This document shows, piece after piece, positions 59,091 to 61,322 of a stretch of DNA of 64,000 bases. Source of the stretch: Anaerolinea sp. (GTDB lineage: Bacteria > Chloroflexota > Anaerolineae > Anaerolineales > Villigracilaceae); contig DYPU01000002.1 in assembly GCA_020719725.1 (NCBI GenBank), positions 1-64,000 on the forward strand, in the 5' to 3' direction. A model generated the notes under the pieces. That model ran no database searches and was not told the origin of the DNA. It saw nothing but the letters and a program-made list of their open reading frames with translations. The position numbers were made by a program, and so were the translations under genes. The stretch's first letter is position 1; the number at the start of each line of letters is the position of its first letter.

Positions 59091-59113
59091 AGGCTGAGCT
59101 TTTTGCCTTCTCA

Positions 59114-59150
59114 GAAAAACTCCGGGCATTAATGGCGCTCGGAGTTTTTC
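59114..59150 (+). terminator. Terminator after small lipoprotein gene
   Basis: GAAAAACTCCG...CGGAGTTTTTC. Confidence 0.8.
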
Positions 59151-59191
59151 TTTTGCGAAAATCGCAAAAATCACCGGCTTACAAACAAAAA

Positions 59192-59200
59192 TGCTATAAT
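59192..59200 (+). promoter_or_regulatory. Extended -10 promoter for leader/cDPG-synthetase-like gene
   Basis: TGCTATAAT. Confidence 0.65.
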
Positions 59201-59206
59201 CTGACC

Positions 59207-59414
59207 TGTTGTTTCGCCTTTCTCTTGGCGCTTTTGGGCATCACAGCCCCAGAAGTGATGTGACGTACCTGGCGTGTTGCCAGGGACGAAAAATCAGCGA
59301 AGTTTGACAGCATACAGGCTCCCGAAATCTCTGGTGAAGCGCAGGAGATATTTTCCCGGAGTCCAAAATCAGAAGATTTTGGACTGATTCAAAAGTTCCA
59401 AAACGTTTGAATCA
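59207..59414 (+). ncRNA. Candidate structured 5' leader RNA of the cDPG-synthetase-like gene
   Basis: CGTACCTGGC-gtgtt-GCCAGGGACG (59264-59288), GTCCAAAATC-AGAA-GATTTTGGAC (59361-59384), abutting TGATTCAAA...TTTGAATCA (59385-59414); promoter at 59192-59200, ATG at 59481. Confidence 0.5.
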
Positions 59415-59480
59415 TCGCCATTTTGTATTGTTGCAAACCTGTCGTTGAAAACTCATCTTTTCTGTTAAGGAGAACACTGC

Positions 59481-60803
59481 ATGTCCCCCATCAAAACCCT
59501 CATCATGGGAGCCGCCGGACGCGACTTCCACAACTTTAACACCTTCTTCCGTGGGAATAAGGATTATGAAGTCGTCGCTTTTACCGCGACCCAAATTCCC
59601 GATATCGACGACCGCCGTTACCCCGCCGCCCTGGCAGGTGATTTATACCCGGCTGGCATTCCGATTCATCCCGAAGAAGAGCTGGCTGAACTGATTCAAA
59701 AGCACGGCGTTCAGCAAGTAATTTTTGCCTATTCAGATGTGCCGCACGAATACGTCATGCACAAGGCTTCGACCGTCAATGCCCTGGGCGCTGACTTTCG
59801 CCTGATGGGTAGCAAATACACCCAGGTCAAATCGACCAAGCCGGTCGTCTCGGTCTGCGCTGTTCGCACCGGGTCCGGCAAAAGCCAGACCACCCGCCGT
59901 GTCTCGCTCATTCTGCGCGAAATGGGCTACAAAGTGGCCGCCATCCGCCACCCCATGCCTTACGGCGACCTGGTCAAGCAGGAAGTTCAGCGCTTCGCCA
60001 CCTACGCTGACCTCGACAAGCACGAATGCACCATCGAAGAGCGCGAAGAATACGAACCCCACATCGATAACGGCGTGATCGTCTTCGCCGGCGTCGATTA
60101 CGAGAAAATTTTGCGCGCTGCTGAAAAAGAAGTTGACATCATTCTGTGGGACGGTGGCAATAACGACTTCCCCTTCTACGTCTCAGACTTGCAGATCGTT
60201 GTCGCTGACCCGCACCGCCCCGGCCACGAGAGCACCTACTACCCCGGCGAAACCAACGTCCGCGCGGCAGATGTTTTCGTGATCAACAAAGTCGACACCG
60301 CCGATGCTGAGAATGTCATCAAAGTTCGCGAAGCCCTGCGCAAGATGAACCCGACCGCCATCATGATCGAAGGCGCTTCCCCGCTCTTCGTCGATGACCC
60401 TGAATCGATCCGTGGCAAGCGCGTTTTGGTCGTTGAAGACGGCCCGACCCTGACCCACGGCGAAATGGCCTACGGTGCCGGTTATGTCGCCGCCCGCCGC
60501 TTCGGCGCCAAAGAAATCGTCGACCCGCGCCCGTATGCGGTCAAATCCATCGCCGCCACCTACGTCAAATATCCGAAAACCGGCCCAATCCTGCCAGCCA
60601 TGGGCTACGGTGACGCCCAGATGCGCGACCTAGAGGCTACCATCGAAGCCGCCGACGTTGATATGGTCATCATCGGCACTCCAATCGACCTGACCCGCGT
60701 CATCAAAATCAACAAACCTTCCCAGCGCGTGCGCTATGAACTGCAAGAGATCGGCCAACCAACCCTGGAAGGTCTTCTAAAGGCCAAATTCGGCAAGAAA
60801 TAA
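59481..60803 (+). CDS. Cyclic 2,3-diphosphoglycerate synthetase-like GTPase
   Basis: MSPIKTLIMGAAGRDFHNFNTFFRGNKDYEVVAFTATQIPDI, VRTGSGKSQTTRRV, ADPHRPGHESTYYPGETNVRAADVFVINKVDTA. Confidence 0.85.
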   Translation: MSPIKTLIMGAAGRDFHNFNTFFRGNKDYEVVAFTATQIPDIDDRRYPAALAGDLYPAGIPIHPEEELAELIQKHGVQQVIFAYSDVPHEYVMHKASTVNALGADFRLMGSKYTQVKSTKPVVSVCAVRTGSGKSQTTRRVSLILREMGYKVAAIRHPMPYGDLVKQEVQRFATYADLDKHECTIEEREEYEPHIDNGVIVFAGVDYEKILRAAEKEVDIILWDGGNNDFPFYVSDLQIVVADPHRPGHESTYYPGETNVRAADVFVINKVDTADAENVIKVREALRKMNPTAIMIEGASPLFVDDPESIRGKRVLVVEDGPTLTHGEMAYGAGYVAARRFGAKEIVDPRPYAVKSIAATYVKYPKTGPILPAMGYGDAQMRDLEATIEAADVDMVIIGTPIDLTRVIKINKPSQRVRYELQEIGQPTLEGLLKAKFGKK

Positions 60804-60944: not shown

Positions 60945-61322
60945 ATGACCACTCTCGCCCCGACCCTTACCACCCGTTTCTTGCCCGCCGTTGACCAGAA
61001 ACTGCGCGACCTTCTGCTGGTTTCCGCTGGCGCAGCCTATGCCTTCGGCCCAACCGGCGGCTACCTGCTTGGATTCATTGTCGCAGCCTACGTCACCGGC
61101 TGGCTGGCCGAGCGCGGCCTGGAGCGTAACTTCAGTACCTCGATTTTGCCCTTCTTGACTGGGACATTGGTTATCTACGCGTTGGGTGCCGCCTGGCTTT
61201 CCTGCTACATTGGCGCAGCGGCGGCAATTACCCACGGAATTTTGCCCTTTCTGCCCGGCGACCTTGTCAAACTGCTATTGGCCGCTCTTGCTTTGCCCGC
61301 TGCCTGGAAACTGACCAACTAA
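60945..61322 (+). CDS. bioY: BioY-like biotin transporter S-component, apparently with internal deletion
   Basis: GPTGGYLLGFIVAAYVTGWLAERG and GILPFLPGDLVKLLLAALALP are BioY hallmarks, but the ORF is 125 aa and lacks the central LPFTPVPITxQT / LLGxxxGLPVFAGG segments. Confidence 0.75.
   Translation: MTTLAPTLTTRFLPAVDQKLRDLLLVSAGAAYAFGPTGGYLLGFIVAAYVTGWLAERGLERNFSTSILPFLTGTLVIYALGAAWLSCYIGAAAAITHGILPFLPGDLVKLLLAALALPAAWKLTN

Follow-up and report, generated by a model that had tools for sequence, protein, structure and literature searches.

The leader that precedes a poorly understood P-loop gene in this Anaerolinea genome (59207-59480 of the window, meaning the whole 64,000-nt stretch of DNA that was analysed) raises the question of whether it is a regulatory RNA, and of what kind. 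A first-pass annotation of the sequence had called it a candidate riboswitch or sRNA on the strength of three hairpins. Here the leader is compared with its counterparts in related genomes, and the features to which the following sections refer are all on the forward strand:

59192-59200, +, extended -10 box TGCTATAAT, the probable promoter of the leader by consensus match only, with a predicted start near 59207
59225-59263, +, orphan argS tail, encoding LALLGITAPEVM as the last 12 codons plus the stop; 5' part of the RNA, recognized from its translation and from intact argS ends in relatives
59228-59233, +, 5' strand of pseudoknot helix PK1 (GCGCUU), which pairs with the H2 loop
59236-59249, +, P0, a proposed hairpin GGGC(AUCACA)GCCC, predicted in compact members; invariant and hence beyond the reach of covariation
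59250-59260, +, 5' strand of P4, CAGAAGUGAUG, the proposed switching strand, complementary to 59454-59464
59264-59288, +, hairpin H1 (CGTACCTGGC/GCCAGGGACG), directly after the argS stop; covariation
59294-59300, +, 5' strand of P3 (UCAGCGA); covariation
59327-59349, +, hairpin H2, with a varying but mostly paired stem; its loop AAGCGC (59337-59342) is the 3' strand of PK1 by complementarity
59361-59384, +, dispersed palindromic repeat GTCCAAAATC-AGAA-GATTTTGGAC, outside the conserved RNA, also present at other places in this genome and in congeners
59385-59414, +, inverted repeat TGATTCAAA/TTTGAATCA in the variable segment, present in genomes G001 and G002 and absent from G003
59442-59448, +, 3' strand of P3 (UCGUUGA); covariation
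59454-59464, +, CAUCUUUUCUG, the proposed 3' strand of P4, from the CATCTT found near the start codon
59467-59472, +, Shine-Dalgarno sequence AAGGAG, from the sequence
59481-60803, +, gene for a 440-aa P-loop protein, a distant relative of cyclic 2,3-diphosphoglycerate synthetase (cDPGS), from PF02492 and PDB 9sxb

The leader and the gene that it precedes

The elements on which the first-pass annotation relied were all found where it had placed them, including the extended -10 box, the ATG at 59481 and the three hairpin pairs. Its description of the leader as structured is borne out by folding, since the 279-nt sequence reaches -95.2 kcal/mol against a mean of -72.0 and lies below all 200 of 200 dinucleotide shuffles (z -4.55). 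The remark that no U tract follows the leader hairpins also holds, and the terminator scan lists no terminator-like site.

The label "cDPG synthetase-like" given to the downstream gene fared less well. The 440-aa protein shows weak similarity to PF02492 (CobW/HypB/UreG; E 1.4e-5) and to an archaeal cDPGS (PDB 9sxb; E 7.1e-5), so that a weak homology stands, but the alignment to the archaeal enzyme is limited to 124 residues (196-319). The two are P-loop proteins of similar length with a weak profile match (PMC10690619; PDB 9sxb); however, they are too distant for the transfer of an enzymatic function or for the inference of a ligand.

An argS tail conserved as RNA

The most conserved part of the leader, 59225-59263, had been overlooked in the first-pass annotation. 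A DNA search of 61 genomes confines conservation across genera to approximately 42 nt (59225-59266), and about half of the relatives possess an intact argS whose end is this DNA (59225-59263) and whose immediate downstream neighbour is the same P-loop gene. In the present genome argS is found on a separate contig (C122) with another tail sequence (LLAISAPDVM), and the P-loop locus keeps the tail alone, beginning 24 nt downstream of the extended -10 box. Where the two genes have parted ways, the element keeps to the P-loop gene and not to argS.

The codons of this tail are revealing of what has been conserved. Thirteen element-bearing argS genes use one codon per position for their final 12 sense codons and for the stop, and the same genes show synonymous variation at codons farther upstream; 26 control argS genes use up to six codons at the same last positions. 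Because the search pattern did not constrain four of the invariant codons (GGC, TTG, CTT, GCG) or several degenerate positions, ascertainment is not the cause of the zero synonymous variation. More specifically, orphan copies (those that do not complete an argS) keep the same letters without any argS to encode, and in four genomes that have both an argS with its own tail and an orphan copy nearby (G003, G022, G026 and G028), the DNA of the argS tail has diverged and the orphan copy is unchanged. The identity of the tail holds across genera whose flanks cannot be aligned. On this evidence, 59225-59263 is conserved as RNA and not as protein.

One genome, G087, carries both forms of the tail, with GCGCTT in the argS copy and GTGCTA in an orphan copy 1.9 kb away. 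Its locus (L183; G087:C62:26100-28505) has the appearance of an intermediate state, in which an intact argS with its tail is followed by an inserted membrane/sulfatase-like gene, an orphan tail and the P-loop gene, and the insert is bordered by direct repeats of the tail (~30 bp). A phage origin was considered and rejected, as the viral contigs hold no copy of the element and the inserted gene of G087, judged by reading only, is not integrase-like.

Covarying structure

Hairpin H1, the first of the three in the earlier annotation, is conserved and covaries among 29 species. Its cells are paired in 90.9% of cases against 72.1% in shuffles, five pairs have changed on both sides, and its covariation score of 0.514 compares with 0.165 when shuffled and 0.07-0.18 in slid controls. 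G-U cells outnumber A-C cells by 29 to 4, an excess that places the RNA on the forward strand. The long-range helix P3, which spans the variable segment, is 84% paired over 25 sequences, compared with 72% (maximum 80%) with shuffled strands and 17-35% in slid controls. For PK1, whose loop was located by its complementarity and occupies the same place in the same hairpin throughout, all 6 pairs form in 23 of 24 sequences, and the remaining sequence forms 5 of them. One lineage exhibits a compensatory change, GUGCUA being matched by the loop UAGCAC (L112, L126, L129) or UAGCGC (L123). An exact 6-mer would arise by chance within ~190 nt in ~5% of sequences (190/4096); it is seen in 21 of 29, with GCGCUU or GUGCUA. 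In two minimal members that lack H2 (L119 and L127), the GCGCUU strand has drifted. Covariation thus extends to H1, P3, H2 and PK1, whose base pairs are kept through compensatory changes, double ones included.

The other two hairpins of the first-pass annotation did not survive the comparison. Both 59361-59384 and 59385-59414 sit in the segment enclosed by P3, which varies between genera. The former is a dispersed repeat, TCCAAAATC-N4-GATTTTGGA, of which this genome has 3 perfect copies, G001 has 11 and G004 has 7; the reversed pattern has no match. The latter lies in the variable segment of some congeners. As a genomic repeat and as part of a variable segment, respectively, neither is usable as evidence for a riboswitch. 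Further copies of the 59361-59384 repeat in this genome are found on contigs C72 and C123.

The invariant core of the element is ~30 nt long. The conserved structure stops a few nucleotides before the Shine-Dalgarno sequence and ends with CAUCUUUUCUG; of the 29 members, 24 have CAUCUU close to the start codon, as does 1 of 37 loci without the element. Save for one mismatch, CAUCUUUUCUG is complementary to CAGAAGUGAUG, the invariant strand of the core, whose GUGAU portion has the P0 loop AUCAC as a possible alternative partner. A thermodynamic proof of such a switch was not obtained in ensemble folding, where P4 exceeds 0.5 in 5 of 29 members and is thus weakly supported; covariation is blind to this helix because the core strand hardly varies. 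Direct folding of the compact member L130 yields P0, H1, P3 and the proposed P4, with an energy that is not below that of shuffles (z -0.87). An H-type pseudoknot within the 42-mer as an isolated motif was dropped as the main explanation because the 42-mer is the argS C-terminus, and its pairings are kept as a proposal.

These results bear on whether the tail could be a fossil, that is, a functionless piece left behind when argS moved or when DNA integrated at its end, with an identity that stems from recent events. Orphan copies do sit where relatives have argS, and the G087 insert does lie between direct repeats of the tail. However, the identity across genera with unalignable flanks, the covariation of H1, P3 and PK1 and the lack of synonymous change in coupled argS copies all speak against it; the compensatory changes already contradict it, and only an alignment error could rescue it. 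The fossil explanation is therefore highly improbable.

Distribution and known RNA families

The core pattern, scanned against the genome_contigs collection (one genome per species, 85,462 species), matched 28 species, all of them Anaerolineae or unclassified Chloroflexota, or 29 when the window is included. Of the 29 copies, 14 complete an argS frame and 15 are orphans. A covariance model built from the core and first hairpin, which does not require the pattern, was searched against the family and yielded a strong group at 62 bits or more, followed by a gap down to 43.6 bits. The genomes of the strong group agree with those of the pattern scan, and the weaker matches that were read are mostly ordinary argS tails. 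In a 400-genome sample of the phylum the model added weak matches of at most 36 bits and nothing stronger. Neither search, of family or phylum, gave a strong match away from the locus of argS and the P-loop gene. Each genome has a single locus, and all copies examined hold a constant position upstream of the same cDPGS-like gene on the sense strand. A tree of the downstream protein, which is weakly resolved and does not include the protein of the window, implies 4 changes between coupled and orphan states and 8 changes in the presence of the element, with a direction that cannot be inferred.

A TATAAT-like box lies within 60 nt upstream of 11 of the 15 orphan copies and of none of the 14 argS-coupled copies, which suggests that the orphan RNA has gained its own transcription. 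Such a box, together with the strong fold, might be taken to indicate a free-standing small RNA or ribozyme expressed from its own promoter. Yet there is no terminator before the ATG, no known RNA family is matched, and the element always stands directly upstream of one gene and has no strong match elsewhere in the family and phylum searches; this possibility is accordingly given very little weight. Thus, of the first-pass proposal of a "riboswitch or sRNA", the cis-regulatory leader and riboswitch candidate stands, given its covariation, lack of an Rfam match and single associated gene, and the free-standing sRNA does not.

The absence of a known family rests on scans with Rfam 15. The leader of the window has no match at gathering or permissive thresholds, and 12 further members scanned at E values up to 5 likewise gave none. 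T-box leaders are structured and precede aminoacyl-tRNA synthetase operons. The present element resembles them as a structured leader near a tRNA synthetase gene, but it follows argS rather than preceding it and has no T-box match in Rfam. A hammerhead-like reading of GUGAUGUGA...CGAAA was also rejected, since the hammerhead consensus CUGANGA is not present and the Rfam scan gave no match.

No published motif of this kind was found among open-licence PMC papers. The closest parallels are orphan riboswitch candidates such as the carA, icd-II and gltD motifs (PMC8632094), with which the leader shares a covarying structure, conserved unpaired letters, association with one gene type, an end at the ribosome-binding site and confinement to a single lineage. 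Unlike those motifs, this leader shares its 5' third with the coding end of argS, a segment that persists as an orphan; it has no Rfam family, and a second, unrelated leader is found on the same gene in sister genera. The odc1 motif is a leader with a uORF built into it (PMC8632094), and the present leader likewise has a short open frame within its conserved structure; its putative frame, however, stems from argS and has no Shine-Dalgarno sequence in orphan copies. Thus the kind of RNA, a lineage-specific structured leader, is already known, and its overlap with the 3' end of argS and the survival of that end make it an unusual variant.

Probable regulation of the P-loop gene

Because all copies precede the same cDPGS-like gene, the most suitable reading of the element is a riboswitch-like leader that acts in cis. 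Comparison of the sequences gives good support for the RNA itself and strongly suggests that the leader regulates the downstream P-loop gene. To the full reading, in which a lineage-specific cis-acting RNA of ~200-250 nt controls the P-loop gene in a riboswitch-like manner, most likely at translation initiation, we assign a probability of approximately 0.6.

In coupled relatives the 5' segment of the RNA is encoded within the last 12 codons of the argS that lies immediately before it. The body of argS has left the locus in this genome, among others, and a promoter-like box stands in front of the tail, which would have been retained because the RNA needs it. In the mechanism that we propose, the invariant core would serve as the sensor, CAGAAGUGAUG would pair by turns with the P0 loop AUCAC and with CAUCUUUUCUG, which lies next to the Shine-Dalgarno sequence, and this switch of partner would alter initiation at the P-loop gene. 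What is sensed would probably be a metabolite rather than a protein.

Alternatively, the leader may bind a protein, such that the gene product, ArgS or another RNA-binding protein represses translation in the manner of ribosomal-protein or aminoacyl-tRNA-synthetase autoregulation. An invariant core of ~30 nt and a single target gene suit a binding site for a protein no less than an aptamer, and the link to argS makes ArgS a candidate. Against this, the element remains with the P-loop gene when the two separate, and a pseudoknotted architecture with a wholly invariant core is common in aptamers. Protein binding is thus an unlikely explanation, if one that deserves consideration.

The open frame in the core suggests a further alternative, a leader-peptide attenuator in which (A/U)UG GGC AUC ACA GCC CCA GAA GUG AUG UGA would be read by ribosomes, either as a peptide of 9 aa or as the end of argS, and the position of the ribosome would set the downstream fold. 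All copies have UUG or AUG at the first position, with AUG in orphan copies only, and a ribosome finishing argS would be expected to cover PK1, P0 and P4. Yet the orphan copies lack a Shine-Dalgarno sequence before the frame, and conservation extends to all synonymous sites and also to the 5' GCGCUU strand that pairs with H2; attenuation of this type is consequently quite improbable.

If the riboswitch-like reading is correct, the element would be an unusually well-documented example of an RNA regulator that shares its sequence with a protein-coding gene and persists after the coding role is lost; the coupled, the duplicated and the orphan state can each be observed.

Another structured leader of the P-loop gene

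Six relatives that lack the element described above (motif 1) have in common a different sequence of ~75 nt, GGGUAAAAACG-P2-CGGACACUGUCC-P1' (L044, L050, L051, L057, L059 and L061). This motif 2, in which GGGUAAAAACG-stem-CGGACACUGUCC is closed by a second stem, is unrelated to motif 1. Of 152 family genomes, 33 carry it, in 34 copies altogether, against 0 matches of the reversed pattern; within a sample of the class, its matches all fall in this family. In all 31 loci read (L208-L238) the same P-loop gene follows, with its start codon directly after the motif. Its two helices covary, with 90% paired compared with 81% when shuffled and with changes on both sides of 15 of the 21 pairs, and an Rfam scan of six motif 2 loci gave no match. 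Motif 2 is thus a candidate riboswitch class on comparative grounds. None of the strong motif 1 genomes is among the motif 2 genomes, and several sister genomes possess the P-loop gene with neither motif, which indicates that the control is dispensable.

The occurrence of two unrelated structured leaders on one gene makes a stronger case for its control at the RNA level. Two independent leaders would mark this poorly understood gene as under signal control and offer two RNAs for a ligand search. Tentatively, and with more doubt than confidence, one may imagine that a new riboswitch class evolved over the end of an essential gene, froze its last codons as RNA and was later freed as a leader with its own promoter. 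Motif 2 would then be an unrelated aptamer for the same gene in sister genera, and both RNAs may sense the same metabolite, tied to the P-loop protein.

Neighbouring features

A conserved downstream partner was sought as a clue to the ligand and the approach was abandoned, as the genes after the P-loop gene, named by reading their proteins, differ among genomes (bioY, obgE and others). Upstream of the leader, 59113-59151 contains an inverted repeat (AGAAAAACTCCGGGC/GCTCGGAGTTTTTCT) that leads into a T-rich stretch and lies after a small lipoprotein-like gene. It is missing from the list of the terminator scan; by its sequence it resembles a two-way terminator that sets the lipoprotein-like gene apart from the leader, and the preceding transcript may end there. 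In the present genome the bioY homologue (60945-61322) encodes 125 aa compared with ~189 aa in relatives; its Pfam match begins at profile position 47, and ~64 internal residues are missing in frame (compare L131), which may reflect a real deletion or an assembly collapse.
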